A stretch of 64,000 nucleotides of DNA from Paragemmobacter kunshanensis (GTDB taxonomy: Bacteria; Pseudomonadota; Alphaproteobacteria; Rhodobacterales; Rhodobacteraceae): contig NZ_JAALFE010000001.1 of assembly GCF_011059185.1 (NCBI RefSeq), positions 310,001 through 374,000 of the forward strand, in the 5' to 3' direction. Shown here in pieces: positions 10,420 to 26,117 of this stretch. The notes beneath the pieces are model-generated. The model searched no databases. It saw nothing but the letters and a program-made list of their open reading frames with translations, and was not told the origin of the DNA. The position numbers and the translations under genes are program-made. Every line of letters begins with the position of its first letter. The stretch's first letter is position 1.

Positions 10420-10537
10420 AGATTGCGGCTCTCCTGTCATGGGGGTGTCATGCGGGGGGCATACGGGGCTTGCGCGGGGGGGGGGATGCCCCTAAATACC
10501 CCCGCTCTTGTTTCCCTTTGGCCCCGGGGGGTTTCGG

Positions 10538-11632
10538 ATGATCCAGACACCGTTCTATCTGATCGACCGCGCAAAGCTGGCGCGGAACATGGCCGTGATG
10601 GACGAGTTGCGCGCCGGGTCGGGGGCGAAGGTCCTGCTGGCGCTGAAATGTTTCGCGACATGGCCGGTCTTCGACCAGATGCGGGAGCATATGGACGGGA
10701 CGACATCTTCGAGCCTTTATGAATTGCGGCTGGGGCGCGAGAAGTTCGGCAAGGAGACGCATGCCTATTCGGTGGCCTGGCCGGAACATGAGATTGCGGA
10801 AGCCGTGGGCCATGCCGACAAGATCATCTTCAATTCGGTGGGGCAGTTGGAGCGGTTCGACAACCAGTCGGCCAGCATCGCGCGGGGGCTGCGGCTGAAC
10901 CCGCGGTTTTCCACCAGCGGCTTTGACCTTGCCGATCCGGCGCGGCCGTTTTCGCGCCTGGGCGAGTGGGATGCGGGGAAGATCGAGCGGGTGATGGACC
11001 GGGTTTCCGGCTTCATGATCCATTACAATTGCGAGAATGCGGATTTCGACCTGTTCGACCGTCAGCTGACGCGGATCGAGGAAGAGTTCGGCGGCCTGTT
11101 GGCGCGGTTGAAATGGGTGAGCCTTGGCGGTGGGATCCATTTCACGGGCGAAGGATATCCGGTGGCCAGGCTGGCGGCGCGGCTGCGGGCATTTTCAGAG
11201 CGGTTCGGGGTGCAGGTCTATCTGGAACCTGGCGAGGCGGCGATCACGGGGGCGGCGTCGCTGGAGGTGACGGTGCTGGACGTGATGAACAACGGCAAGG
11301 ATCTGGCGATCGTGGATTCCTCGGTCGAGGCGCATATGCTGGACCTGCTGATCTACCGCATTTCGGGGAAGATGGAGGTCGCGGGGGATCACCCCTACAT
11401 GATCTGCGGGAAGTCCTGTCTGGCGGGGGATGTGTTCGGCGAGTTCAATTTCCCTGCGCCGTTGAATGTGGGTGACCGGCTGAGCATCGCGGATGCGGCG
11501 GGTTACACGATGGTCAAGAAGAACTGGTTCAACGGGGTGAAGATGCCGAGCATCGTCATCAAGGAGCTGGACGGTTCGATGACTGTCGCGCGGGAATTCG
11601 GCTATGCCGATTTTGCCGGGAATCTTGGCTGA
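10538..11632 (+). CDS. nspC: Carboxynorspermidine/carboxyspermidine decarboxylase
   Basis: NspC is a PLP-dependent decarboxylase of the alanine-racemase fold that converts carboxy(nor)spermidine to (nor)spermidine, the last step of the aspartate-semialdehyde route. The 364 residues start at ATG 10538 (MIQTPFYLIDRAKL). The PLP lysine is in LLALKCFATWPVF (K37). The family blocks TSSSLYELRLG, LGGGIHFTGEGYP and the CGKSCLAGDVFG dimer-interface segment near 295 are all present. The following gene encodes the dehydrogenase that makes its substrate. In alphaproteobacteria the pathway usually yields spermidine from putrescine; that product assignment is inference. Confidence 0.94.
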   Translation: MIQTPFYLIDRAKLARNMAVMDELRAGSGAKVLLALKCFATWPVFDQMREHMDGTTSSSLYELRLGREKFGKETHAYSVAWPEHEIAEAVGHADKIIFNSVGQLERFDNQSASIARGLRLNPRFSTSGFDLADPARPFSRLGEWDAGKIERVMDRVSGFMIHYNCENADFDLFDRQLTRIEEEFGGLLARLKWVSLGGGIHFTGEGYPVARLAARLRAFSERFGVQVYLEPGEAAITGAASLEVTVLDVMNNGKDLAIVDSSVEAHMLDLLIYRISGKMEVAGDHPYMICGKSCLAGDVFGEFNFPAPLNVGDRLSIADAAGYTMVKKNWFNGVKMPSIVIKELDGSMTVAREFGYADFAGNLG

Positions 11633-11674
11633 ATTTGCCGGTCTGTCCGGCCCTTCCTCTAGGGGGTGAATTCC

Positions 11675-12913
11675 ATGAAACGCAACGTGTTGATCATCGG
11701 CGCAGGCGGTGTGGCGCAGGTCGTGGCGCATAAATGCGCGCAGGCCAATGACCGGCTGGGCGATCTGCATATCGCGTCCCGGACGGTGGGGAAGTGCGAG
11801 GCGATCATCGCGTCGGTGCATGAGAAGGGCGCGATGAAGGTGCCCGGCGTCTTTGCCGCCCATGCGGTGGATGCGATGGACAGCGCGGCGGTTGTCGCGC
11901 TGATCCGGCGGCTGGGGGTGGAGATCGTCATCAACGTGGGGTCGTCCTTCGTGAACATGCCGGTGCTGGAGGCCTGTATCGAGGCGGGCGTGGCCTATAT
12001 GGACACGGCGATCCATGAGGATGCGGGGAAGATCTGCGAGACGCCGCCGTGGTATGGGAATTACGAGTGGAAGCGGCGGGATCGGTGCAAGGCGGCGGGG
12101 GTGACGGCGATCCTTGGCGTGGGGTTCGATCCGGGTGTCGTGAATTCCTGGGCGCGGGTGGCGGAGGATGAGTTTCTGGATGAGATCACGTCGATTGATA
12201 TCGTTGATATCAATGCCGGGTCGCACGGGAAGTATTTCGCGACGAATTTCGATCCGGAGATCAATTTCCGCGAGTTTACCGGGACGGTCTATTCCTGGCA
12301 GGGCGGCAAGTGGCAATCGAACAGCATGTTCGAGGTGGGCCGCGTCTGGGACATGCCGGTGGTGGGCGAACAGAAGGCCTATCTGACCGGGCATGACGAG
12401 GTGCATTCGCTGTCGGCGCGCTATCCGGGGGCGGATGTGCGGTTCTGGATGGGGTTCGGGGACCATTACATCAACGTGTTCACCGTGCTGAAGAACCTTG
12501 GGCTTCTGTCGGAGAAGCCCGTGCGGACGGCGGAGGGACTTGAGGTGGTGCCGTTGAAGGTGGTGAAGGCGGTGCTGCCTGATCCGGCCTCGCTGGCGCC
12601 GGGGTATTCGGGGAAGACCTGCATCGCGACGATTGCGCGGGGGGTGAAGGACGGGAAGCCTGCGGAAGTGATGCTGTATAACGTGGCGGACCATGCCGAG
12701 GCCTTTGCCGAGGTCGGGTCGCAGGGGATTTCCTATACGGCGGGGGTGCCTCCGGTCGCGGCGGCGCTGCTGGTGGCGGATGGGACCTGGGATGTGGGGA
12801 CGATGGTGAATGTGGAGGAGCTGAATCCGAAGCCGTTCATGAACCTGCTGAACGTGATGGGTCTGCCGAACCGGGTGAAGGATGCGGGCGGCGATCGGGA
12901 ATTGGCGTTTTGA
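11675..12913 (+). CDS. Carboxynorspermidine synthase-type dehydrogenase (saccharopine dehydrogenase family)
   Basis: This 412-residue NAD(P)H-dependent enzyme is expected to condense aspartate semialdehyde with putrescine or diaminopropane and reduce the Schiff base to carboxy(nor)spermidine. The Rossmann motif IGAGGVAQVVAHKC lies at the amino end. The middle holds the saccharopine-dehydrogenase-type GVGFDPGVVN and FREFTG blocks. ATG 11675 is preferred over GTG 11666 because AGGGGGTGA is correctly spaced before it. It follows nspC by 42 bases and ends just before a strong intrinsic terminator, so the two genes form the spermidine-synthesis operon. Lysine saccharopine metabolism is the alternative but is unlikely beside nspC. 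Confidence 0.92.
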   Translation: MKRNVLIIGAGGVAQVVAHKCAQANDRLGDLHIASRTVGKCEAIIASVHEKGAMKVPGVFAAHAVDAMDSAAVVALIRRLGVEIVINVGSSFVNMPVLEACIEAGVAYMDTAIHEDAGKICETPPWYGNYEWKRRDRCKAAGVTAILGVGFDPGVVNSWARVAEDEFLDEITSIDIVDINAGSHGKYFATNFDPEINFREFTGTVYSWQGGKWQSNSMFEVGRVWDMPVVGEQKAYLTGHDEVHSLSARYPGADVRFWMGFGDHYINVFTVLKNLGLLSEKPVRTAEGLEVVPLKVVKAVLPDPASLAPGYSGKTCIATIARGVKDGKPAEVMLYNVADHAEAFAEVGSQGISYTAGVPPVAAALLVADGTWDVGTMVNVEELNPKPFMNLLNVMGLPNRVKDAGGDRELAF

Positions 12914-13899: not shown

Positions 13900-15360
13900 C
13901 TAGCCGCGGCGGGCGCTTTCCACCAGTGCGTCGAAGCGGGCTTTTCTGGGGGCGAGGCGTTGGGCGAGCGCGGGGTCGGGGTCCACGGTGCCGCGCATGG
14001 GCAAGGGGGCGGAGAGGACGTCGGTGGAGGCACCTGCGGCCACGGCGGCAAGGCGGGCTGCCCCTGCGGGGCCGCCGATGTCGCTGCGCGCGGGAAGGGC
14101 CACGGGTTCACCAATCGCCGTGGCGATGAGGGTGGTCCAGAGGGCGGAGCGGGTGCCACCGCCGACTGCGACGAAGCGTTGGGGGATGGCGCCCACTTCA
14201 CGTTGGGCGGCGATGCAATCGGCGAACTGGAAGGCGACGCCTTCCATCGTGGCGTAACCCATCATGGCACGGTCCACGCCGGGGTGGAGGCCTTCGAGGC
14301 GGCCTGTGGCCTGTGGTCTGTTGGCCGGAGTGCGGATGCCGGTAAGGCAGGGGAGGAAGACGGGGGAGGCGTCGGTCTTGCGGGCATCCATCGCCTCGGC
14401 CTCACCCGCCAGAGTGGCGGCGGTGGTGCCGGAGAGGCGGGCGGTCCAATCCAGTGCTGCGGTGGCGGACATGACGACGCCCATCGACAGGAAGGTGTCG
14501 GGCGCGGCGTGGGCGGAGGTGAGGATGGCGCGTTGGGGGCCGGGGTGGAAGGTGGCGTCCACGATGCAGGCGACGCCGGATGTGCCGATGGTGAGGACCG
14601 CGTCGCCGGGGCGGGCGGCGCCTGCGCCGAGGGTGGAGGCCATGTTGTCGCCCGCGCCTGCGGCGACGGGGATGTTGGGCTTCATCCCCCAGCGCTGGGC
14701 GAGGTGGGGGCGGAGTCCTCCGGCAGCTTTCCATGCGGAGGTGACGGGAGGCAGGTGGTCGGGGTTCCAGCCTGCGAGTTCGCAAAGCTGCGCGTCCCAT
14801 TCGCCGGTGCGGCAATCCATCAGTTGGGTGCCGCCTGCGTCGGTGGGTTCGGTGGCGACTTCGCCTGTCAGGGCGAGGCGGACGTAATCCTTGGTGAGCA
14901 GCAGCATCCGGGCGTCGCGCATGACCTGCGGTTCGTGCTTTGCCAGCCAGAGCAGTTTCGGGGCGGTGATGCCGGGGTCGGGGGTGCCGTTGGTGCGGCT
15001 TCCGATGTCGGGGCAGCGTTGCAGGAGTTCGGCGCATTCGGCGATGCTGCGCTGGTCGTTCCAGAGGATCGCGGGGCGCAGGGGTTTCAGCGATTTGTCG
15101 AGGAGAAGGGCGCAGAGCATCTGGCCCGAGAGGCCGATGGCGGAAACGGCGGCCATTTCGCGCGGCGCGGTGGCGGCGAGGCGGTCGAGGCAGGACCAGA
15201 CGGCGGCGACCCAATCGTCGGCCTCCTGTTCGGACCAGCCGACATGGGGGATGGAGACGGCGATGGGTTGGGCGGCATCGGCCAGCACGGTTTCGGCGTC
15301 TTGCAGGATAACGGCCTTCACGCCCGAAGTGCCAAGGTCGATGCCGATGGTCAGGGTCAT
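13900..15360 (-). CDS. xylB: Xylulokinase (FGGY-family carbohydrate kinase)
   Basis: This 486-residue kinase of the FGGY family transfers phosphate from ATP to a ketose, typically D-xylulose. The amino-terminal phosphate loop GIDLGTSGVKAV is followed by the family block VGWSEQEADDWVAA. The ADP-binding half carries GAGDNMASTLG, GTSGVACI and VAVGGGTRSALWTTLIA. A GPAGAARLAAVAAG block is near the end. It overlaps the SorC regulator upstream by four bases (ATGA). The length and sequence fit xylulokinase better than ribulokinase or glycerol kinase, but FGGY specificities drift. In this locus the true ketose might differ, for example one made by oxidation of a pentitol. Confidence 0.87.
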   Translation of the reverse strand: MTLTIGIDLGTSGVKAVILQDAETVLADAAQPIAVSIPHVGWSEQEADDWVAAVWSCLDRLAATAPREMAAVSAIGLSGQMLCALLLDKSLKPLRPAILWNDQRSIAECAELLQRCPDIGSRTNGTPDPGITAPKLLWLAKHEPQVMRDARMLLLTKDYVRLALTGEVATEPTDAGGTQLMDCRTGEWDAQLCELAGWNPDHLPPVTSAWKAAGGLRPHLAQRWGMKPNIPVAAGAGDNMASTLGAGAARPGDAVLTIGTSGVACIVDATFHPGPQRAILTSAHAAPDTFLSMGVVMSATAALDWTARLSGTTAATLAGEAEAMDARKTDASPVFLPCLTGIRTPANRPQATGRLEGLHPGVDRAMMGYATMEGVAFQFADCIAAQREVGAIPQRFVAVGGGTRSALWTTLIATAIGEPVALPARSDIGGPAGAARLAAVAAGASTDVLSAPLPMRGTVDPDPALAQRLAPRKARFDALVESARRG

Positions 15361-16322
15361 GCGGCCACCAAGGCGCGGGCGGTGTTTTCTTCTGTCACGA
15401 AGGTGTCAATCAGGCCGAGGCCGAGGATGGCGCGGCAGACGGGAACCTTATGCGCGCCGCCAGCGGCGAGGATCACGTTGGGGATGCGGGCGAGGTCGGG
15501 GATGCCGATGCCAATGACCTTTTCGTTGATCGGGTGGTCGATGGGGCGGCCTGCCGCGTCGATCACGGTGCCGAGGATGTCGCCGACGCCACCTGCGGCG
15601 CGGAGTTCTTCGATCGTGGTGCCGCCGGGCAGGGCGTCGCGCATGAGGAGGGAGCGTTTGGACAGATCGCCCGCCGCCATGGCCAGCGCATCGACGGCGC
15701 GGATGCGTTCGAGGATGTCGCGGAAGACGTCGAGTTGCATGATCGTGTCGCGGCTTTCGGCGCTGCCTGCGTAGAGGGGGGCGGTGAAGTAGCTGTGCTG
15801 CGCGCCGAGGAGATCGGCGAGGCGGGTGGTGATTTCGAAGCTGTTCAGATCTGACCCGCGCGTCAGGCCGCCCATGACGGAGATCACCTCGAGATCCGGG
15901 CGTTCGATGGCGGCAAGGAAGCGGGTGGCGATGTTCAGCGTGCCGCCCCAGGACATGCCGAAGCTTTTCACCGTGGGTTCGGCGAGGATTTCGGACAGGA
16001 GGTTGCCAAGGGCTGCGCCGGTGATCGTCTGCACGTCGCTGTCCTGTGCCGGGGCGGGGGCGACGTAGGCCTGTTTCAGGCCGAACCTGGCGCAGAGCGC
16101 CTGTTCAAGGTCAAAGCAGGCGGCATAGGCGGTGTTGAAGGTGATGCGGACGAGGCCGATGCGATGCGCCTCGGACAGGGCCTTGTTCACGCGGAGGCGG
16201 GTGGCGCCGAGTTTTTCGGCGACCTTTTCCTGCGTCAGGCCTTCGACGTAATAGGCCCAGGCCACGCGCGCGAGAAAGCGCTGTTCGGCGTCGATCTGGG
16301 GCAGTTTGGGGGCGCGGGCCAT
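15357..16322 (-). CDS. SorC/DeoR-type sugar-binding transcriptional regulator
   Basis: This 321-residue regulator has an amino-terminal helix-turn-helix (YYVEGLTQEKVAEKLGATRLRVNKALSEA, about residues 25-53, shown here in part) and a large carboxy-terminal NagB-like effector domain that binds phosphorylated sugars. Features of that domain include FGMSWGGTLN, VISVMGGLTRGS and ILAAGGAHKV. It sits between the permeases (10 bases away) and xylulokinase (4-base overlap). It is therefore the obvious local regulator of the divergent ABC-transporter locus. The likely operator is the imperfect dyad between the two divergent starts near 19.5 kb. The effector is probably a phosphorylated pathway intermediate. 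Confidence 0.9.
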   Translation of the reverse strand: MARAPKLPQIDAEQRFLARVAWAYYVEGLTQEKVAEKLGATRLRVNKALSEAHRIGLVRITFNTAYAACFDLEQALCARFGLKQAYVAPAPAQDSDVQTITGAALGNLLSEILAEPTVKSFGMSWGGTLNIATRFLAAIERPDLEVISVMGGLTRGSDLNSFEITTRLADLLGAQHSYFTAPLYAGSAESRDTIMQLDVFRDILERIRAVDALAMAAGDLSKRSLLMRDALPGGTTIEELRAAGGVGDILGTVIDAAGRPIDHPINEKVIGIGIPDLARIPNVILAAGGAHKVPVCRAILGLGLIDTFVTEENTARALVAA

Positions 16323-16332
16323 CCGTATCCTA

Positions 16333-17160
16333 TCACTTCACCGCGCCCATCGTCAGGCCGCGCACCAGATGTTTCGACGCGATGAGCGCGAAGATCAACA
16401 CCGGGATGACGATCAGGGTCGAGGTGGCCATGATCTTTCCGTAGGGCACGTCATAGCCTTCCATGAAGGTGACGGCCATGGCGGGCGCGGTTTTCGCGGC
16501 CTTGGGGGCGAGGATGTAGGCGAAGAGAAGTTCGTTCCAGGAGAAGATGAAGGAGAGGATGGAGGAGACGGCGACGCCCGGCATGGCGAGGGGAAGGCAG
16601 ATGGAGCGGAAGATGCGCCATTGCGAGGCGCCTTCGAGAAGCGCGGCCTCATCCAGTTCGCGGGGGATGGAGCGGAATTGATCGGTGCAGATCCAGATGA
16701 CGATGGGGAGGGTGAAGGTCAGATACATCAGGATCAGCGCGAGATGGGTGTCGCGCAGGCCCAGTTCGCGGCTGAGCAGGAAGACGGGGAAGGCGAGGAC
16801 GACGGGCGAGACGAAGCGGTTGGTGATGAACCAGAACCACAGGTCCTGCTTGCCGCGGAATTCGAAGCGGGCCAGCGCATAGGCGGCGGGGGTGCCGAGG
16901 ATGACGGCGAGGGTGGTGGTGCAGGTGGCCACGATGATGGAGTTGATGAGGGAGATGCCGACCTTGTCTTCGAAAAGCACCTCCCAGTAATTCGCCAATG
17001 TGGGGGTGAATATCCAGGCGGGCGGGGATTGCAGGGCGATGACCTGTGTCTTCAGGCTGGTGGTGACCATCCAGTAGAAGGGGAAGATGCAGAAGGCGCA
17101 GATGGCGACGAGCAGCAGCCCTTCGGCAAGATAGGCGCGGCGTTGGATCGGGGCGGCCAT
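16333..17160 (-). CDS. Carbohydrate ABC transporter permease (MalG type)
   Basis: This 275-residue inner-membrane permease has six membrane segments. The EAA motif that docks on the ATPase is seen as ELDEAALLEGASQWRIFRSI near residue 175-195, and the segment FSWNELLFAYIL is typical of MalG. The ATG at 17160 overlaps the stop of the MalF-type permease as TGATG. It belongs to the divergent polyol/sugar importer with the binding protein (18125-19462) and the ATPase on the opposite strand. Longer frames upstream of 17160 are shadow sequence from the neighbour. Confidence 0.93.
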   Translation of the reverse strand: MAAPIQRRAYLAEGLLLVAICAFCIFPFYWMVTTSLKTQVIALQSPPAWIFTPTLANYWEVLFEDKVGISLINSIIVATCTTTLAVILGTPAAYALARFEFRGKQDLWFWFITNRFVSPVVLAFPVFLLSRELGLRDTHLALILMYLTFTLPIVIWICTDQFRSIPRELDEAALLEGASQWRIFRSICLPLAMPGVAVSSILSFIFSWNELLFAYILAPKAAKTAPAMAVTFMEGYDVPYGKIMATSTLIVIPVLIFALIASKHLVRGLTMGAVK

Positions 17161-18038
17161 CAGTTCACCTCGCGGTAGAAGAAGCGGATGTAGAGGCGGG
17201 CGAGGAAGATGGTGATCGCCAGCATGATGATCGCCTGGGCCGAGGCGAGGCCGATGTCGAATTGCCGGTTGCCCACGCGTTCGATCAGGACGGCGATGAA
17301 TTCGGTGGCGGCGCCCGGTCCGCCGCGTGTCATGGTGAAGGGCATGTCGAAGAGTTTCAGCGTGTCGGCGGTGCGCAGGATCAGCACGGCGACGAGCGAG
17401 GGGATCAGGAAGGGAAGCTGCACATAGCGCAGGACGAGCCATTGGGATTTGGTTTCAAGCTGCGCGGCTTCCTCGATTTCCGGGGGCACGGTGGAGAGGC
17501 CCGCCAGCAGGACGAGGGCCACGAAGGGCGTCCATTGCCAGATGTCCCAGATGATGACGGCGATGAAGGCGTTGGTGGGGTCGCCGATGAAGTTGATCGC
17601 GTCGACGCCGAACCAGCCCAGCATCTGGTTCACCACGCCGTATTTCTGGTTGAGCATGACCTGCGCCAGAAGGCCCACCACGGCATAGGTGGTGGCCATG
17701 GGCAGGACGAGCGAGAGGCGGGTCAGCGTCTTGAAGAAGGTGAGCCCGGGGCGGTGCAGGACGATGGCGATCAGCAGGCCGAGGGCAAGCTGGATCGGGA
17801 CGGAGATCAGGAACAGCGTCGCGGTGCGGCCCATGGCCTGCCAGAAGGTGATATCGGTCAGGACGTTGATGTAATTGTCGAGCCCGACGAAACGCGACTG
17901 GGCCTGCTTTGTGAGGTTGAAGTAATGCAGGCTTTTCCAGACCGCATAGAGCAGCGGTGCAATCCCCACGATCAGCAGGGCGGCGACGGCGGGGCCGAGA
18001 AAGGCGATGACCGTCTTTCGTGGCACTTGGGCTGTCAT
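17160..18038 (-). CDS. Carbohydrate ABC transporter permease (MalF type)
   Basis: This 292-residue permease starts at the ATG at 18038 (MTAQVPRKTVIAF), with GGAAGGA about nine bases upstream. It has six membrane segments. The EAA loop EIEEAAQLETKSQWLVLRYV precedes the signature LKLFDMPFTMTRGGPG of sugar permeases. It pairs with the MalG-type permease downstream through a TGATG overlap. Expression relative to the binding protein is probably damped by the hairpin at 18064-18086 in the gap between them. Confidence 0.93.
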   Translation of the reverse strand: MTAQVPRKTVIAFLGPAVAALLIVGIAPLLYAVWKSLHYFNLTKQAQSRFVGLDNYINVLTDITFWQAMGRTATLFLISVPIQLALGLLIAIVLHRPGLTFFKTLTRLSLVLPMATTYAVVGLLAQVMLNQKYGVVNQMLGWFGVDAINFIGDPTNAFIAVIIWDIWQWTPFVALVLLAGLSTVPPEIEEAAQLETKSQWLVLRYVQLPFLIPSLVAVLILRTADTLKLFDMPFTMTRGGPGAATEFIAVLIERVGNRQFDIGLASAQAIIMLAITIFLARLYIRFFYREVN

Positions 18039-18063
18039 TCGGGCGGTCCTTCCGGGTGGAAAT

Positions 18064-18086
18064 CCCCGGCCCATGGCGGGCCGGGG
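18064..18086 (-). terminator. Attenuating hairpin between binding protein and permease genes
   Basis: A 9-bp perfect stem (CCCCGGCCC/GGGCCGGGG) closes a 5-base loop and is followed on the minus strand by ATTTCC. Such hairpins after a binding-protein gene usually stabilise its mRNA or cut permease expression; that role is inferred. Confidence 0.5.
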
Positions 18087-18124
18087 GCTTTGGTTCGAAC
18101 GTAAGAGACTGTCAGCAGGCCGGA

Positions 18125-19462
18125 TTACTGGGCCAGCGGCTTCTTGCCGTCATAGTATCCGGCTTCGGCGAGGACGGCTTCCATCTGTTCGCCGATGGTC
18201 TTTGCGCCCTCTTCGATGCTGACTTCGCCCAGCATCATCTTGGTGCCCCATTCCTGCACGATTTCCGTGATGGCGGGCCATTCGGCGAAGCGCGGACGGA
18301 ATTCCGGCACGCCTTCCTGCCAGGATTCGACCAGGGCGGGGATGAACTTGAACTTTTCGGCCAATGCCGGATCGGCATAGGCCGACTGACGGGCCGGGAC
18401 GCCGCCCATTTCAAGATACTTGCCCGCATTGGCCTTGGACGTCACCCACTGGATGAAGAGCCAGCCTGCGGCCTGCTCTGCCTCATCCGCCTGGCTTGCG
18501 ACTGCAAGGGAGAAGCCGCCCAGCGCGGGTTTGCGGCCTGCGGGGCCGGTCGGTTCGGGCGCGATTTCCACGCAATCGGCCACGGTCGAGGTTTCGGGCG
18601 AAACCACGGTGGAATAGAAGGCCGACCATTCGGTGATCATCGCCACATCGCCCTGGGCGAAGGCGTTGACGGTTTCGGCATGGTCATAGGCGACGATGCC
18701 TTCGGGCATGAACTTCATCAGATCCTGACGGAATTGCAGCCCCGCCTGCGATTCGGGCGAGTTGAGGTTCGACTTGAATTCCGCGTTCAGGAAGGATCCG
18801 CCGAAGGGCCAGAGGAAGCGGGCGAAACTGTCGGCCGACTGGGTTTCGTTGCGCTTGGACTGCAGGGCATAGGCGTATTTGCCATCCTTGGTGAGCGCGG
18901 GGCCGTAGGTATCCATCACCTCTTGCCAGGTGGCCGGGGGTTTGTCGAAGCCCGCGGCCTCCAGCATGCAGCGGTTGTAGAAGAGAAGGCCGGAATAGTT
19001 GTCGAAGGGCAGGCCGTAGTTCACGCCATTCCACGACCCGAAGGCATCGAGGACCAGCGGGAAGAAATCCGCCATGTCGAGTTCGGGATCGGCCAGTTCG
19101 GGATTGTTGATGAAGGTTTCCGACGGCACGACCCAGCCGTTTTCGGCGAAGTTGCCCATCCAGACGAGGTCGATCAGCGCGATGTCGAGATCGCCGCCAG
19201 CGGCAAAATCGCGGACTTGTTCGCCCAGCGCGTTTTCATAGGGAACGACGGTGTAGTTGACCTTGATCCCCGTCGCTGCCTCGAAATCCGGGAGCATCTG
19301 GATCGCGGCGTTGTAGCCGGGGCGATCAAGGAACAGCACCTCGAGTTCGGTTCCGGCATAGGGTTTGGCGGCTTCTTCCAGCGTCCAGGCCTGTGCCTGG
19401 CCACCGATGGCGAATGCGGACGCGGCAAGCGCCAGCGCACTGACGTGCATCTTGAGTTTCAT
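18125..19462 (-). CDS. Extracellular sugar/polyol-binding protein of ABC transporter
   Basis: This 445-residue family 1 solute-binding protein starts at ATG 19462 behind GGGAGGAAACC. The signal peptide spans residues 1-25 (ending GGQAQA). The mature part has family 1 features: GTELEVLFLDRP, a central Trp-rich hinge (AFGSWNGVNYGLPFD) and AITEIVQEWGTKMM near the end. It delivers substrate to the two permeases encoded just downstream. The ligand is not evident; the neighbouring xylulokinase, SDR and sugar-phosphate enzymes point to a polyol or pentose-like compound. It is the first gene of the minus-strand arm of the divergent locus. Confidence 0.93.
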   Translation of the reverse strand: MKLKMHVSALALAASAFAIGGQAQAWTLEEAAKPYAGTELEVLFLDRPGYNAAIQMLPDFEAATGIKVNYTVVPYENALGEQVRDFAAGGDLDIALIDLVWMGNFAENGWVVPSETFINNPELADPELDMADFFPLVLDAFGSWNGVNYGLPFDNYSGLLFYNRCMLEAAGFDKPPATWQEVMDTYGPALTKDGKYAYALQSKRNETQSADSFARFLWPFGGSFLNAEFKSNLNSPESQAGLQFRQDLMKFMPEGIVAYDHAETVNAFAQGDVAMITEWSAFYSTVVSPETSTVADCVEIAPEPTGPAGRKPALGGFSLAVASQADEAEQAAGWLFIQWVTSKANAGKYLEMGGVPARQSAYADPALAEKFKFIPALVESWQEGVPEFRPRFAEWPAITEIVQEWGTKMMLGEVSIEEGAKTIGEQMEAVLAEAGYYDGKKPLAQ

Positions 19463-19495
19463 GGTTTCCTCCCAGCGGTTGAGCGTTTTGAACGG

Positions 19496-19551
19496 TTGAC
19501 TTCCATTTGTAACGCTTAGCATATAAATGTATCGCAAGCGCATCCTGTCAA
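19496..19551. promoter_or_regulatory. Divergent promoter region with imperfect dyad (SorC operator candidate)
   Basis: A plus-strand TTGACT (19496-19501) and a minus-strand TTGACA (19551-19546) face each other across a 28-bp imperfect dyad at 19513-19540. The dyad reads CGCTTAGCATA-N-TGTATCGCAAGCG, with 9 of 13 arm positions matching. AT-rich TATAAA/TTTATA elements lie in the dyad centre. A regulator bound here would cover both promoters; the SorC protein of the locus is the natural candidate. Confidence 0.5.
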
Positions 19552-19590
19552 CGGGAAAATGCGCAGGTCGCGGAAGGGGAGGGTCGGCGG

Positions 19591-20655
19591 ATGGCCGAGG
19601 TGAAGCTGGTCGGGGTGAACAAGTTCTATGGCGGCCAACAGGCACTGCATGGCGTGAGCCTGGACATTGCCGATGGGGAATTCGCGGTTTTCGTGGGGCC
19701 TTCGGGATGCGGGAAATCCACGCTGCTGCGATCCATCGCGGGGCTGGAATCGATCAGCGGGGGGACGATTTCGATTGGCGGGCGGGATGTTTCCGGCCTT
19801 GCCCCATCGGAGCGGGATGTGGCGATGGTGTTCCAGTCTTATGCGCTGTATCCGCATATGACGGTGCGCGAGAACATGGATTTCGGGATGAAGATCAACA
19901 ACTTCACCCCGGCAGACCGGGAACGGCGAATCGCCGAGGCGGCGCGGGTCTTGCAGCTGGAGCCCTATATGGACCGCAAGCCTTCGCAATTGTCGGGCGG
20001 GCAGCGGCAGCGGGTGGCGATCGGGCGGGCGATCGTGAAGCAGCCGAAGGTGTTCCTGTTCGACGAGCCTTTGTCGAACCTGGATGCCAAGCTGCGGGTG
20101 CAGATGCGGGTGGAGCTTGAGGCGCTGCATTCGGAGCTGAAGGCCACGATGATCTATGTGACGCATGACCAGGTGGAGGCCATGACGATGGCCGACAAGA
20201 TCGTGGTGCTGAATGCGGGCCGGATCGAGCAGGTGGGCAGCCCGATGGAGCTGTATCACCGGCCGCGGACGGAGTTCGTGGCGGGCTTCATCGGCGCGCC
20301 GAGCATGAATTTCCTCGACATCCGTTCCGTGGGTGGTCGCATCACCTGCGGGGAGGCGGTGATCGGGACAGCCGCACCCGTGCCGGGCGCGGTGCGGCTG
20401 GGAATACGGCCCGAACATGTGGGGCTGGTGGCGGCGGGCGCGGGCGAGATGGGCGGCACGGTGGTGCTGCGCGAGACGCTGGGGGGGGATGCCTATCTGT
20501 ATGTTCGGACGGCGGCGGGCCAGGTGGTGGTGCGCGCGGATGGGGATACGGCGCTGGACCATGGCGATACGGTCGGGCTGTCGATGCCCGCGAATCGGTT
20601 GCATCTGTTTGGCGCGGATGGGGTGACGCTGTCTTCGGGGGGTGTGACGGCATGA
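19591..20655 (+). CDS. Sugar ABC transporter ATP-binding protein (MalK/UgpC type)
   Basis: This 354-residue ATPase is the third component of the importer. Walker A is GPSGCGKST (about 36-44), the Q-loop FQSYALYPHMT is near 86, the signature LSGGQRQR is near 135, Walker [11 protein letters not shown] near 155 and the H-loop THDQVEA near 190. The carboxy-terminal regulatory OB-fold domain (from about 240, LGIRPEHVGL) is full length, as in MalK and UgpC. It is the first gene of the plus-strand arm, with its start 128 bases from the divergent binding-protein start, and it overlaps the next gene by ATGA. Confidence 0.94.
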   Translation: MAEVKLVGVNKFYGGQQALHGVSLDIADGEFAVFVGPSGCGKSTLLRSIAGLESISGGTISIGGRDVSGLAPSERDVAMVFQSYALYPHMTVRENMDFGMKINNFTPADRERRIAEAARVLQLEPYMDRKPSQLSGGQRQRVAIGRAIVKQPKVFLFDEPLSNLDAKLRVQMRVELEALHSELKATMIYVTHDQVEAMTMADKIVVLNAGRIEQVGSPMELYHRPRTEFVAGFIGAPSMNFLDIRSVGGRITCGEAVIGTAAPVPGAVRLGIRPEHVGLVAAGAGEMGGTVVLRETLGGDAYLYVRTAAGQVVVRADGDTALDHGDTVGLSMPANRLHLFGADGVTLSSGGVTA

Positions 20656-21998
20656 CGGCGGATCTGATCGCGGGGGCGGTGGCCCGGTCGGCCACGGTGG
20701 CAGAGGTTCTGGTGGGGCGCGGGGTGCTGGCGGAGGCGGGCAACCTGTTCCGGCGGCAGTTCAGGGGCGATCTGGCCTGTATCATCGCGGATGAGAATAC
20801 CTGGAAGGCGGCGGGAGCGGCGGTCGAGGCGGCGCTGCAGGCGGCGGGGGTGAAAGTGCGGCGGCATGTGCTGCCCGGGCGGCCCCGGCTGAAGCCGACC
20901 GTCGATCTGGCCAACAGCCTGCGGGATGTGCTGGCGAAGGACGGGTCGGTGCCGGTGGCGGTGGGATCGGGCGTGATCAACGATGTGGTGAAACACGCGG
21001 CTTTTGGCCTTGATAGAGACTATCTCTGCGTGGGCACGGCGGCGAGCATGGACGGCTATACCTCGGCCGGGTCGCCCCTGTCGGACCGGGGGTTCAAGAA
21101 GACGATCCAGTGCCGCCCTGCCAGGGCGGTGATCGGCGATCTGGACGTGATCGCGGCGGCACCTGCAGAGATGACGGGCTGGGGTTATGGCGACCTTGCG
21201 GGGAAGGTGCCTGCCGGGGGCGACTGGATCATCGCGGATGCGCTGGGGATCGAGGCGGTGGATGATGTGGCCTGGCCCCTGGTGCAGGGCGGATTGCGCG
21301 GCTGGCTTGGGGCGGCGGATGCGATTGCAGCGGGGGAGGCGCAGGCGCTGGAGGGGCTGTTTACCGGGCTGACGCTGGTGGGGCTGGCGATGGAGTTGCA
21401 CGGGTCTTCGCGGCCTGCCTCGGGCGCGGATCACCAGATCGCGCATCTGTGGGAGATGGATGACCTGAAGTTCGGCGGCGAGCGGGTGAGCCATGGGGCC
21501 TGCGTGGCGGTGGGCTGCGTGATGGCGCTGCGGCTGTTCGACTGGCTGCTGGGGCAGGATCTGGCGCGGCTGGACGTGGCGGCGGCGGTGGCGGCGGCAC
21601 CGTCGCTGGGCGTGAAGATCGCGGCGGTGCATGCGGCCTTTGGCCCCGGCGAGATTGCCGCGCGGGCGGTGGAGGAAGTGCGGGCCAAGCATGTGGAAGG
21701 GGCCGCGTTGCGGGCGCGGCTGGAGCGGGTGCGGGATGGCTGGCCCGTCTTGGCGGAGCGGTTGCGGGCGCAGGTTCTGGCGCCCGAGGCGATGGTGGGG
21801 ATGCTGCACCGCGCGGGGGCGCCTGCCGAGGCAGAGGAGATCGGGGTGGGGCGCGATTACCTGCGTCGGACCACGCTGAACGCGCGGTTCCTGCGGAGCC
21901 GCTATACGGTGCTGGACCTGCTGGACGAATGCGGGATGCTGGAGGCGGCGGTGGAGGCGAGTTTGCCCCTGCCCGCGCGGAAGGAGGGGCGCGCATGA
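20652..21998 (+). CDS. sn-Glycerol-1-phosphate dehydrogenase family protein (AraM-like)
   Basis: This 448-residue protein of the iron-containing alcohol dehydrogenase/G1PDH superfamily is related to Bacillus AraM. AraM reduces dihydroxyacetone phosphate to glycerol-1-phosphate. The NAD(P)-binding [13 protein letters not shown] lies near 105-117, followed by [17 protein letters not shown]. Metal-ligand histidines are in [19 protein letters not shown] near 260. It is about 50 residues longer than Bacillus AraM, with extra carboxy-terminal sequence. The neighbours (ABC importer, NagD/AraL-like phosphatase) echo the Bacillus araLMNPQ arrangement. No glyceryl-phosphate prenyltransferase is present, so a catabolic role on a polyol phosphate is equally possible. 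Confidence 0.85.
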
Positions 21999-22555
21999 GG
22001 TATGCGGATCAGGTTTCGCGCGCGGCAGAGGAGTTGCGGGTTGCGGCGGCGGGGGTGGACCCTGCCGCGCTGGCGGGGATGGTGGAGGAATTGGCGGGCG
22101 CGCGGCGCGTGGTCTGTTACGGCGTGGGCCGTGAGGGGCTGATGATGCGGGCCTTGGCGATGCGGCTTTATCACATGGGGATGGATGCGCATGTGGTGGG
22201 GGATATGTCCTGCCCTCCGGTCGGAGCCGGGGATGTGCTGGTGGTGAGCGCGGGGCCGGGGAATTTTTCCACGGTGCTGGGGTTGATGGGCGTGGCCAAG
22301 GGGGCCGGGGCGCGGGTGGCCTGTGTCACGGCGCAGCCGGGGGCGGCGGTGCCTGCGGGGTCTGACCGGGTGCTGGTGATCCCGGCGCAGACGATGGCAG
22401 ATGATACGGGGCCTGCGGTGGCGAGCGTGCTGCCCATGGGATCGCTGTTCGAGGGCGCGCAGTATCTGGTGTTCGAAATGCTGATCCTGATGCTGCGCGA
22501 CCGGCTGGGGGTTTCCCCCGATGCGATGCGCGCGCGGCATACCAATCTGGAGTGA
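21995..22555 (+). CDS. SIS-domain sugar isomerase, 6-phospho-3-hexuloisomerase-like
   Basis: This 186-residue, single SIS-domain protein starts at ATG 21995 behind AAGGAGGGG and overlaps the dehydrogenase gene by ATGA. The size and blocks ([38 protein letters not shown], and [16 protein letters not shown]) fit the PHI/HxlB-like group, which interconverts ketohexose phosphates. The usual SGSG/SGET motif is altered to SAGPGN. No hexulose-6-phosphate synthase is adjacent, so formaldehyde fixation is unlikely; it more likely isomerises a sugar phosphate produced in this pathway. The fold is clear, the substrate is not. Confidence 0.8.
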
Positions 22556-23331
22556 ATGCCGTGGCGGAATGGGAGGGGCGGTTTTCGCTGGCGGGGCGCA
22601 AGGCGCTGGTCACCGGGGCAAGCAAGGGGATCGGGTTCGAGATTGCCCGCGTCTTTGCCGATGCGGGCGCGGATATCGTGGCCGTGGCGCGGGATGCGGA
22701 CGGGTTGCTGGAGGTGAAGCGCGAGGTTGAGGCGCGGGGGCGGCGCTGTCTGGTGATCGAGGCGGAGATGGCGACGGCGGAAGGGCCTGTGCGGGCCGCG
22801 CGCGAGGCGCTGGAGGCCTGGGGGACCATCGACATTCTGGTGAACAACGCGGCGATTGCGCGGATTGCACCGGCGGTGGAGCTGTCGCTGGCGGATTGGG
22901 ATGAGACGATGGCGGTGAATGTGCGCGCGCCGTTCCTGCTGGCGCAGGCCTTGGGGCCTGCGATGATCGCGCAGCGCTGGGGGAAGGTGATCAACATATC
23001 CTCGCAGACGGGGGTGATCGCGCTGGATGACCATGCGGCCTATGCGACGTCAAAAGGGGCGCTGAATGCGCTGACCAAGTCGCTTTGCGCGGAATGGGCG
23101 CGGCATAATGTGCAGGTGAACGCGATCTGCCCCACGGTGATCCTGACGCCGATGGGAAAGGCGGTCTGGGGGCCGGAGGAGAAGGGCGGGCCGATGCGCG
23201 CGGCCACGCCCGCGCGGCGGTTCGGGGAAACGGTGGAGGTGGCGGATATGGCGCTGTATCTGGCCTCGCCTGCGTCGGGGCTGGTGAACGGGGCCTTGAT
23301 GATGATCGAAGGGGGCTATTCCAGTGTCTGA
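22552..23331 (+). CDS. Short-chain dehydrogenase/reductase
   Basis: This 259-residue classical SDR starts at GTG 22552, overlapping the stop of the SIS gene. Cofactor motif TGASKGIG is near residue 22, [10 protein letters not shown] near 95, and the catalytic Ser-Tyr-Lys set is in NISSQTG and YATSKGA (about 145-165). It ends in a [10 protein letters not shown] segment. The family oxidises sugar alcohols and many other substrates with NAD(P). In context it could oxidise the imported polyol to a ketose for xylulokinase. That assignment is inference from neighbours only. Its end overlaps the HAD gene by eight bases. Confidence 0.88.
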
Positions 23332-24229
23332 GGAATTGCGGGACGCGGAAGCGGCGTTCCTGCGCTATGAGGCGGTGCGGGCGCGGCTGCCTGCGGCGCG
23401 GTTTCCGGCGGAGCCTGTGTTTGCGCGGGATCTTTCCGAGGTGGCGGATCGCTGGGACGGGTTCGTTCTGGATGCCTTTGGCGTGCTGAACGTGGGCGAG
23501 ACGCCGATTGCGGGCGCGGTGGCGCGGATGGCGGAATTGCGGGCGCGGGGCAAGAAGCTGTGCGTCTTGACCAATGCGGCGAGTTACACGCGGGCGGAGG
23601 CCTTGGTGAAGTATCGGCGGCTGGGCTTTGATTTCACCGAGGATGAGGTGGTGTCGAGCCGGGATGTCGCCGTCAGCCGGATCGGTATGCTGATGCCCGG
23701 CGCGCATTGGGCGGCGATCGCGGCAGAGGGGGACGGGTTTTCCGACATTCCGGGGCGCGTGGGGGATGCGGTGGCGGAGCCTGCGCTGTTCGATGTGGCG
23801 GATGGGGTGCTGTTCCTGTCTTCGGCGCGGTGGACCCCTGCCCTTCAGGCGCGGCTGATGGAGGCCATGGCGCGGCGGCCCATTCCCATCGTGGTGGCCA
23901 ATCCCGATCTGGTGGCCCCGCGCGAAGATGGGCTGTCGCAGGAGCCGGGGTTGTTTGCCCATGCGGTGCTGGATCATGTGGGGGGCGTGGCGCATTGGTA
24001 TGGCAAGCCCTTTGCCGACGGGTTCCACGATGCCTGCGCGCGGACGGGGCTGCCGCCGGAGCGGCTGGCCATGGTGGGGGATACGCTGCATACCGATGTG
24101 CTGGGTGGCCGCGCGGCGGGGATGGGCGCGGTGCTGGTGGCCGATCACGGCCTGTTCGCGGGGCGGGACGTGCGGGGATATATCGCGCGGTCGGGGATCG
24201 TGCCGGATGCGGTGGTGGCGACGACCTGA
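23324..24229 (+). CDS. HAD-superfamily sugar phosphatase, NagD/AraL-like
   Basis: This 301-residue class IIA HAD hydrolase starts at GTG 23324. Motif I is LDAFGVLN with the nucleophile Asp50, motif II is VLTNAAS near 80, and motif IV is GDTLHTDVLGG near 250. NagD-type phosphatases hydrolyse sugar phosphates and control pathway overflow; AraL does this in Bacillus. Position 52, usually the second Asp of the DxD motif, is Phe here. That resembles the DxW variant of some alphaproteobacterial relatives and may lower or change activity. It closes the plus-strand arm, a five-gene overlapping operon. Confidence 0.85.
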   Translation: MSEELRDAEAAFLRYEAVRARLPAARFPAEPVFARDLSEVADRWDGFVLDAFGVLNVGETPIAGAVARMAELRARGKKLCVLTNAASYTRAEALVKYRRLGFDFTEDEVVSSRDVAVSRIGMLMPGAHWAAIAAEGDGFSDIPGRVGDAVAEPALFDVADGVLFLSSARWTPALQARLMEAMARRPIPIVVANPDLVAPREDGLSQEPGLFAHAVLDHVGGVAHWYGKPFADGFHDACARTGLPPERLAMVGDTLHTDVLGGRAAGMGAVLVADHGLFAGRDVRGYIARSGIVPDAVVATT

Positions 24230-24344
24230 CGCGCGGGCGCGGCGGGGGTTGCAAGGGGGGGCCTTGTCATGCCCTATTCACCCTTGCGTGGTGCGGCGGG
24301 GGTGATGGCCCGCCTGCCCTGTCTGTAACGAGTTGGAGTTTTCG

Positions 24345-25397
24345 ATGAACCCCTATCAATCGCTGGACGAGCGATATTTCTGGTCGCCTGCCGTGGCGCA
24401 GAAGAACATGTTCGACATCGAGCGGTTGTGGGAGCCGAAATTCCGCATCGGGCCACGCGCGCCGGTGGCGACCTTCGGTTCCTGTTTCGCGCAGCATATC
24501 GGGCGGGCGCTGAAAGGGCGGGGTTTCAACTGGATGGATGCCGAGCCCGCGCCAACCGGATTGCCGGCGGATGTGGCGAAGACCTTCGGCTTTGGCGTCT
24601 TTTCGGCGCGGACGGGCAATATCTATACGGCCTCGCTGCTGGCGCAATGGGTGGGTTGGGCGCTGGGCGACAGCGCCCCGCCCGAGGAGGTGTGGGAGAA
24701 GGACGGGCGGTTCTACGATCCGTTCCGCCCGGTGATCGAGCCGGGGGGATTCGCCTCGGCCCAGGAGATGCTGGCCGGGCGCGAGATGGCGATCGAGGCG
24801 TTCCGGAAATGCATCACCGAGGCGCGGGTCTTCGTCTTTACGCTGGGCCTGACGGAAAGCTGGTTCAACCGCGAGGAGGGCCATGAATACCCGATGTGCC
24901 CCGGCACGGCGGCGGGGGAGTTCGACGCGGATCGGCATGAATTCCGCAATCAGGATTATGTCTTCATCCGGCGAAAGCTGGTGGAGGCGATCCGGCGGAT
25001 GCGGCAGGCCAATCCCCGGCTTTCGGTGCTGCTGACGGTGTCGCCGGTGCCGTTGACGGCGACGATGTCGGGCAATCATGTGCTGCTGGCGACGACGGAA
25101 TCGAAAGCGGTGCTGCGGGCGGTGGCGGGCAGCGTGAGCCGGGCGCTGCCTTTCGTGGATTATTTCCCGTCTTACGAGATCATCAGTTCGACGCCCTATC
25201 GCGGCAGTTTCTTTGAACCGAACCAGCGCGGGGTGAATCCGGCGGGCGTGGCGCATGTGATGGACATGTTCTTTGCCTGCCTGATGGCGAAATATCCGCT
25301 GCCGGTGGCGACGGGGAAAAAGCCGGGAAAGGCGAAGGGCGATGTCGCCTGTGAAGAGGCGCTGCTGGCGGCCTTTGGCACGAAGGCGGGGGGCTGA
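24345..25397 (+). CDS. GSCFA-domain protein
   Basis: This 350-residue protein starts at ATG 24345 (MNPYQSLDERYF). The namesake motif GSCFA is at residues 45-49 in ATFGSCFAQHIGR. The domain is thought to be an SGNH-hydrolase relative; members are often linked to polysaccharide modification, but the activity is unproven. Further blocks are FVFTLGLTESWFN and LTVSPVPLTAT. The carboxy tail from about 318 is Lys/Ala-rich. There is no signal peptide. It is followed after three bases by another SGNH-like gene, with which it likely forms a unit. Confidence 0.87.
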   Translation: MNPYQSLDERYFWSPAVAQKNMFDIERLWEPKFRIGPRAPVATFGSCFAQHIGRALKGRGFNWMDAEPAPTGLPADVAKTFGFGVFSARTGNIYTASLLAQWVGWALGDSAPPEEVWEKDGRFYDPFRPVIEPGGFASAQEMLAGREMAIEAFRKCITEARVFVFTLGLTESWFNREEGHEYPMCPGTAAGEFDADRHEFRNQDYVFIRRKLVEAIRRMRQANPRLSVLLTVSPVPLTATMSGNHVLLATTESKAVLRAVAGSVSRALPFVDYFPSYEIISSTPYRGSFFEPNQRGVNPAGVAHVMDMFFACLMAKYPLPVATGKKPGKAKGDVACEEALLAAFGTKAGG

Positions 25398-25400
25398 GCC

Positions 25401-26117
25401 ATGCGGATCTGCGTGATCGGCAACAGCCATGCCGGTGCCATCAAGGAAGGGTGGGACCGGATCGCCGCGGATCATCCCGGCGTGGCGGTGCAGTTTTTCG
25501 CGGCACCCGGGGACAATATGGATGGCCTGAAGCTTTTCGAAGGGAGGATGGTCGCGACGGAGCCGTTGCTGGCAGAGTTCGTGACGCTTTCGAGCGGGGG
25601 GCAGACCGAGATTCGACCAGAGGCCCATGACCTGTTCCTGATCGTCGGCCTGGGATTGCGACCGCCGAAGATGGACCGGCGGCTAAGCGCGCAGGTCTAT
25701 CGCGCAGTCACCTCGGAGCTGTCGAGATGCCTTGCCTGCCGTGTCGCCGGGATGATCCGCATGGTTAGCGAGGCCCCCATCCTGATGCTGCCGAACCCGC
25801 TTCCGGCAAGGCAGCCGACCCCCGACGAGACGGAAGGCCGTCTCATGCGCCAGGAAGATTGCCTGCGGGATGTGCAGTCAGCGTTGGGCCTGAATGGCCT
25901 TCAGATCCTGCGGCAGCCTGAAGAGACCTTGTCATCCGAATGGACAACGGACCGGCGATGGAGTGAAGGGTCAACCACGCTGGCCGGAGTGATCGGGATG
26001 GCGCCGGGCGCGATGCATCCGGACAGCGAATTCAATCACATGAATGCGGATTACGGGGCATTGTGGCTTTCCATCATCCTTGCCGATCTGGCAGGGAAGC
26101 CCAGGCATTCGCGCTGA
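25401..26117 (+). CDS. SGNH/GDSL-hydrolase-like protein, unknown function
   Basis: This 238-residue protein opens with MRICVIGNSHAGAIKEGW. GNSH at 7-10 takes the place of the GDSL-type nucleophile block of SGNH esterases. A PGDNMDG turn follows near 35, and HPDSEFNHMNADYGALW near the end provides candidate catalytic His residues. It appears to be a cytosolic partner of the GSCFA protein upstream, sharing the same transcript. The second half is visibly less GC-rich than its neighbours. A role in acyl-group editing on a surface glycan is possible but unsupported. Confidence 0.65.
   Translation: MRICVIGNSHAGAIKEGWDRIAADHPGVAVQFFAAPGDNMDGLKLFEGRMVATEPLLAEFVTLSSGGQTEIRPEAHDLFLIVGLGLRPPKMDRRLSAQVYRAVTSELSRCLACRVAGMIRMVSEAPILMLPNPLPARQPTPDETEGRLMRQEDCLRDVQSALGLNGLQILRQPEETLSSEWTTDRRWSEGSTTLAGVIGMAPGAMHPDSEFNHMNADYGALWLSIILADLAGKPRHSR

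Follow-up and report, generated by a model that had tools for sequence, protein, structure and literature searches.

Known systems and the locus under study

Enzymes of the AraM or sn-glycerol-1-phosphate (G1P) dehydrogenase (G1PDH) family are best known for making precursors of archaeal-type lipids. The sugar operon of Bacillus subtilis that holds araL and araM combines an AraM-family dehydrogenase with a HAD-IIA phosphatase, AraL, whose weak activity (KM about 30 mM) extends to several sugar phosphates, xylulose 5-phosphate being one of them (PMC3207120). Here we analyse a ten-gene locus at positions 13900-24229 of a 64,000-nucleotide stretch of Paragemmobacter kunshanensis (this whole stretch is called the window, and positions refer to it), in which an AraM-like gene accompanies an ATP-binding cassette (ABC) importer. 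The locus is real and conserved and, by comparison with its relatives, appears to be polyol-catabolic: under SorC control, it probably takes up and degrades a sugar alcohol, and the likeliest candidates are the pentitols ribitol, xylitol and arabitol. Its notable part is the AraM-like member.

Pentitol and xylitol loci fed by ABC importers occur in Alphaproteobacteria, and one locus of this type, Dshi_0546-0551 of Dinoroseobacter shibae (Rhodobacterales), was reportedly assigned to xylitol by mutant fitness. No paper was found under the Dshi locus tags searched, and the words xylitol, ribitol, polyol and arabitol never occur in the main text of Price 2022 (PMC9007349). The window has the same kind of importer, SorC regulator, SDR and SIS protein as those variants of such loci that carry a zinc dehydrogenase of the MDR family (MDR variants; L030 and L031 among the loci fetched here), and it differs from the MDR variants in having an AraM-like enzyme for the zinc dehydrogenase, an orthologous XylB, and a HAD-IIA phosphatase in the position taken by HAD-IA in L031. 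The initial annotation had spoken of a candidate undescribed pathway, and 'undescribed' is too strong: the locus is a variant of ABC-fed polyol catabolism, a known kind, and D. shibae itself is reported to respire ribitol, D-arabitol and xylitol (PMC3789786). The titles and abstract openings of the literature matches listed contain no description of this locus, and no literature was found that joins xylitol dehydrogenase with sn-glycerol-1-phosphate dehydrogenase.

The parallel with B. subtilis araL-araM drawn in the initial annotation holds at the level of protein families but not at that of the pathway. The AraM proteins are 26% identical, and neither arabinose isomerase (AraA) nor the prenyltransferase PcrB (PF01884), both of which had been supposed to be lacking, was found in the strain's own genome (4.46 Mb, 99.98% complete); the control search for PcrB was positive in 7 of 14 genomes, including B. 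subtilis and archaea. An arabinose pathway (no AraA found) and an ether-lipid role (no PcrB found) were rejected on these grounds.

Open reading frame (ORF) and profile searches gave ten coding sequences in two divergent, closely packed operons, so that all ten genes previously annotated are present. The minus-strand operon comprises XylB, the SorC regulator, two permeases and the binding protein, and the plus-strand operon the ATPase, the AraM-like dehydrogenase, the SIS protein, the SDR and the HAD-IIA phosphatase:

13900..15360, minus strand: FGGY kinase, xylulokinase (XylB); TIGR01312 403.5 bits (cut-off 380.25), top PDB match 5vm1 'Xylulokinase' (6.4e-104)
15357..16322, minus strand: SorC/LsrR-type transcriptional regulator with sugar-binding domain; PF04198 4.1e-50
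16333..17160, minus strand: ABC permease, MalG type; PF00528 9.5e-21 (for 16333-17151)
17160..18074, minus strand: ABC permease, MalF/UgpA type; PF00528 2.7e-9
18125..19462, minus strand: solute-binding protein, a polyol binder by relation; PF01547 6.8e-33, top PDB match 5iai (7.3e-45)
19506..19527, plus strand: candidate operator TTTGTWNCGNNNNNCATAYAAA in the divergent promoter region; pattern match
19591..20655, plus strand: ABC ATPase, UgpC/MalK type; NF008653 (UgpC) 471.8 bits (cut-off 432)
20652..21998, plus strand: AraM-like/G1PDH-family dehydrogenase (Fe-ADH_2); PF13685 1.5e-28, nearest fold 9h4x
21995..22555, plus strand: SIS-domain isomerase-like protein of a distinct subfamily near HxlB; TIGR03127 148.1 bits (below cut-off 160)
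22552..23331, plus strand: SDR dehydrogenase, polyol/xylulose-reductase-like; top PDB match 4egf 'L-xylulose reductase' (7.8e-57), GolD/DthD 244.2 bits (below cut-off 286)
23324..24229, plus strand: HAD-IIA (NagD/AraL-type) phosphatase; PF13344 2.2e-16, PF13242 1.8e-13, TIGR01459 94.5 bits (below cut-off 103.75)

The AraM-like, SIS, SDR and HAD proteins score under their best NCBIfam cut-offs and are therefore named at family level only; for the HAD protein, PF13344 and PF13242 are over their cut-offs, and TIGR01459 and TIGR01460 slightly under theirs. The MalG-type permease starts at the ATG at 17160, within a longer mechanical ORF that reaches 17442. The genes had been described as all overlapping, which is true of six of the nine junctions (-4 and -1 bp in the minus operon; -4, -4, -4 and -8 bp in the plus operon); the other two junctions of the minus operon, whose order is -4, +10, -1, +50 bp, are spaced, and 128 bp (19463-19590) separate the two operons.

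AraM-like and zinc dehydrogenases in one slot

The cluster is patchy across genomes yet coherent. Within the genus, 13 of 19 genomes had AraM, and the binding protein (E <= 1e-100) occurred in 16 of 394 genomes of the family, 2 of 385 of the class and 4 of 398 of the phylum, with the own genome in each count. Gene maps of the fetched loci were made by tblastn. The full ten-gene set was matched in 13 of the 28 loci found by AraM query (L002-L004, L007-L013, L018, L019 and L021), partial sets were seen in others, and in L014 and L022-L029 the set is missing; the closest named relatives among these loci are labelled Rhodobacteraceae, Rhodobacter and Tabrizicola. The neighbourhood maps thus bear out the supposition that the genes travel together, and co-conservation across loci rules out a chance assembly of unrelated genes.

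For the dehydrogenase slot, we tallied 44 loci with a binding protein at 54% identity or more (43 fetched loci, after L040 was dropped as a duplicate of L013, and the window). 28 of them carry AraM and 15 an MDR zinc dehydrogenase, none carries both, and L051, at a contig end, carries neither. L002-L021 were retrieved with AraM as the query, so AraM is present there by construction, and the fairer sample for this count is the 20 genomes and seven plasmid loci retrieved via the binding protein. AraM was found in 11 of these 20 genomes (own genome included), MDR in 8 and neither in one; MDR was found in all seven plasmid loci, which are seven of the 14 best binding-protein matches (H41-H44, H46, H51 and H54). 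Outside the tally, without the binding protein, are L035 (an SIS match) and the AraM matches L036, L058-L061, L071, L073 and L074.

On a tree of the binding proteins (quick method, with Shimodaira-Hasegawa-like approximate likelihood ratio test support only), the slot label changes four times, and at least three of the changes are forced by starred branches. None of 500 shuffles of the labels gave a count as low, which shows clustering of the label only. L045 stands among the AraM rows of the tree, yet its MDR is of the Caballeronia type, and AraM is absent from the interval between the ATPase and SIS genes; its branch is long and its placement unsure. The MDRs belong to more than one subfamily, since those of L031 and L032 share about 30% identity. 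The L031 enzyme, the sole MDR compared with solved structures, is nearest to sorbitol dehydrogenase (2.5e-77), with xylitol dehydrogenase and L-arabinitol 4-dehydrogenase among its six structure matches. The strain's genome yielded no close MDR (best of four matches, 32%).

Because the slot alternates repeatedly between AraM-like and zinc dehydrogenases, we read the AraM-like enzyme as a probable polyol dehydrogenase, and this alternation is the main support for that reading. A catabolic use of the AraM-like enzyme on a polyol is therefore supported by comparison. The initial annotation had proposed a polyol phosphate as its substrate; the interchange itself favours a free polyol, the kept G1PDH motifs a phosphorylated one.

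Proposed pathway, substrate and alternatives

In the order and direction of steps that we infer, the ABC importer would bring in the polyol, and the SDR and the AraM-like enzyme, as two NAD(P)-linked oxidoreductases, would convert it to a pentulose, the AraM-like enzyme filling the place held by the zinc dehydrogenase in relatives. XylB would phosphorylate D-xylulose to xylulose 5-phosphate, which would feed the pentose phosphate pathway; the SIS protein may isomerise the keto-sugar or its phosphate, and the HAD enzyme may dephosphorylate misplaced or accumulating polyol or sugar phosphates.

In the 44-locus comparison, a polyol-type dehydrogenase (SDR) and a ketose kinase (XylB), so called by family, are linked to the importer. 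The SIS protein is found in 25 of the 28 AraM loci and 12 of the 15 MDR loci, the SDR (at least 54% identity) in 25 and 7, and XylB (at least 45% identity) in 23 and none, respectively. A second pentulose kinase (TIGR01315 654.4 bits in L031, cut-off 408.7) occurs in 7 of the 15 MDR loci and in none of the AraM loci. HAD-IIA is found in 20 AraM loci and no MDR locus, HAD-IA in five MDR loci and no AraM locus, and HAD-IIB takes the phosphatase place in three more AraM loci (L016, L017 and L020). Three HAD classes thus fill this place overall, and a HAD gene of one class or another is present in 23 of the 28 AraM loci; among the five others, L005, L046 and L047 are short contigs, and L015 and L049 are without one in the examined stretch. 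A D-psicose-3-epimerase-like gene (at least 70% identity) occurs in seven of the 44 loci, five with AraM (L011, L019, L021, L042 and L048) and two with MDR (L037 and L050), which suggests that both variants pass through a ketose.

The SIS protein of the window belongs to an HxlB-like subfamily with an altered loop. It shares the fold family of HxlB, and its MGSLFE and final H.NLE match B. subtilis YckF; the canonical HxlB proteins compared have GRSG and SGSGE/R, whereas the SIS proteins of the cluster have GREG and SAGPG. SAGPG is kept in 41 of 42 aligned rows (which include repeats of the window and of the duplicate locus), and the exception, L035 (GRER and TVGPG), is the SIS match without the binding protein. 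The altered loop is the one that holds phosphate in SIS proteins, and the change means that the HxlB reaction cannot be assumed. A ribulose monophosphate or formaldehyde role was rejected: the HxlB model scores under its cut-off, the loop differs, and there is no HxlA among the ten genes. We also note that in the MDR variants L037, L038, L055 and L057 the SIS gene separates the binding-protein gene from that of the first permease, and that the permease genes are followed by a second TIM-barrel gene (AP_endonuc_2), which has 45-66% identity to the L055 copy.

The predicted model of the AraM-like protein is of high confidence (predicted local distance difference test, pLDDT, 93.8), and its nearest fold is B. 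subtilis AraM 9h4x (template modelling scores 0.75/0.84, 26% identity in the structural match). D181, H261 and H281, which we take to be the Asp-His-His metal ligands, are invariant in all 24 aligned rows and align with 9h4x and 5fb3. K185 and S253-R254-P255 (the SSRPASG loop of G1PDHs) are kept as well and match the same two structures; the aligned E. coli GldA has neither motif, rhizobial AraM has both in changed form, and the Priestia protein keeps the lysine and has SHP instead of SRP. With 148.6 bits against the G1PDH equivalog model NF002022, well under the cut-off of 413, the protein is not classed as a G1PDH.

Several observations weigh against a pentitol pathway with AraM as a dehydrogenase of the free polyol. 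The kept G1PDH motifs favour a phosphorylated substrate. L006 (8291-12794) keeps XylB, AraM, SIS and HAD genes free of stops, with importer, regulator and SDR absent from the stretch, a gene set that would fit AraM working on phosphosugars independently of polyol import. The AraM and MDR variants differ in their kinases and so may not handle the same polyol, and L014 and Rubrobacter L036, which lie outside the binding-protein cluster and have other importers or none, carry AraM alongside a zinc dehydrogenase. As for the binding protein, its best solved match, 5IAI, is remote (157 bits), its other structure matches include maltose, trehalose and sorbitol binders, and its own model is too poor for use (pLDDT 43.7).

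The alternative that survives best, though we consider it rather unlikely, is that the AraM-like enzyme acts on phosphates only, forming with SIS, XylB and HAD a phosphosugar module (polyol phosphate to ketose phosphate or the reverse, followed by dephosphorylation), and that oxidation of the imported polyol falls to the SDR alone. It would account for the lysine and SSRPASG motifs, kept here and lost or altered in GldA and rhizobial AraM, and for the stop-free XylB-AraM-SIS-HAD set of L006. It also fits with the HAD genes that adjoin AraM in Rubrobacter, rhizobia, Acidiphilium and Shinella, and with the HAD-IIB proteins of L016, L017 and L020, which are 57-61% identical to those of a second AraM lineage (compared against L020). 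Set against this, the replacement of AraM by zinc dehydrogenases is left unexplained, the part of K185 and R254 in phosphate binding is itself presumed, and the phosphate-holding SIS loop is altered.

A substrate other than a pentitol, namely a hexitol or tetritol (e.g. allitol, galactitol or erythritol), is unlikely to a slightly greater degree. The epimerase-like gene in 7 of the 44 loci and the closeness of the SIS protein to hexulose-phosphate isomerase would suit it, as would the Rubrobacter AraM loci, which have dihydroxyacetone-kinase-family and RpiB genes of the sort that tetritol pathways carry. However, XylB scores over its cut-off, the MDR relatives have a pentulose kinase, the best relative of the binding protein is ribitol-bound, and epimerases of the D-psicose-3-epimerase family reportedly also accept ketopentoses. 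The relative in question, 5IAI, is named 'Sugar ABC transporter' in PDB and is treated as a ribitol crystal structure in PMC8468352. A pentitol is thus the most likely substrate and our best guess.

Finally, it is very improbable that the enzyme makes G1P from dihydroxyacetone phosphate, as B. subtilis AraM does, for lipid or other use and lies in a polyol locus by accident: the nearest fold, the metal site and the G1PDH motifs would agree, but PcrB was not found in the own genome, by a search positive in 7 of the 14 control genomes, and overlapping genes, co-conservation and interchange with MDR do not look incidental.

The divergent region carries TTTGTAACGCTTAGCATATAAA at 19506-19527, the single match in the window when up to two mismatches are allowed (0.01 expected), which makes the element a candidate operator. 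A similar operator-like element (slightly looser pattern, up to one mismatch) is present in 25 of 35 intergenic stretches, window included, and in two of the seven MDR stretches (none in L030, L031, L045, L050 and L053); the pattern was derived from these same loci, and the counts are partly circular.

Outside the locus, at 10508-12913 (plus strand), a pyridoxal-dependent decarboxylase gene adjoins a saccharopine-dehydrogenase-type gene, and presumably the pair are carboxynorspermidine (polyamine) genes; a saccharopine-dehydrogenase-type gene is also close to the polyol locus in L002, L003, L006, L007, L008 and L039. At 24333-26117 (plus strand) there are genes for a GSCFA-family protein and then a 238-aa protein without a Pfam match.

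AraM homologues in other loci and implications for the family

The second AraM lineage, only about 30% identical to the AraM of the window, is found in rhizobia, Acidiphilium and Shinella (L058, L059, L061, L073 and L074), where SorC, AraM and HAD-IIB genes stand together, mostly with GlpD. Rhizobium leguminosarum, Acidiphilium and Shinella have SorC, AraM, HAD-IIB, GlpD and an FGGY-type kinase, with importers of differing kinds; S. meliloti has the same set, except for an unannotated gap at the GlpD place, and in R. etli p42a FGGY, SorC, AraM-like and SDR genes are annotated and HAD-IIB was found by tblastn. These loci share SorC, AraM, HAD and the FGGY-type kinase with the window, and an importer is annotated in four of the five (not in R. 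etli); they differ from it in their changed lysine and SRP motifs, in having no SIS annotated beside AraM, and in their importers. Since the HAD-IIB proteins of all five are 57-61% identical to that of L020 despite the low identity of the AraM proteins, the same phosphatase accompanies two AraM lineages, and the pairing of AraM with a phosphatase, pointed out in the initial annotation, recurs beyond the cluster.

Other contexts vary. In Rubrobacter plasmids HAD-IIA adjoins AraM, together with dihydroxyacetone kinase family, RpiB and FGGY genes, and in a Priestia plasmid AraM lies beside araBA. In Bacteroidales L027 (8650-14503), a mannitol-dehydrogenase-family gene lies on one side of AraM and an MFS transporter gene, with an FGGY kinase gene after it, on the other, possibly another polyol-phosphate context. 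In the verrucomicrobial L023 and L029 the HAD match upstream of AraM is only weak (26-27%). The neighbours scanned in L024 and L026 (one per locus) are a phosphofructokinase and an aspartokinase/homoserine dehydrogenase, neither of them a polyol enzyme, so the AraM family is not always found in polyol loci.

It is possible, and we put it forward tentatively, that the bacterial AraM/G1PDH family includes a widespread branch of dehydrogenases with a catabolic role on polyols or polyol phosphates, which can change places with zinc polyol dehydrogenases and regularly have a HAD phosphatase as partner; here they would work with a new SIS subfamily whose reaction would be the isomerisation of a 3-keto sugar or of its phosphate. 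The debate on archaeal-type lipids discusses bacterial AraM homologues as G1P dehydrogenases (PMC5059525), and such a branch would change how they are read there; if it is real, bacterial 'G1P dehydrogenase' annotations, also where they serve as markers of archaeal-type lipids, would often be wrong. It would also give a lead on why araL and araM of B. subtilis stand in a sugar operon, and would make the AraM-like and SIS proteins candidates for a novel polyol dehydrogenase and a novel isomerase.

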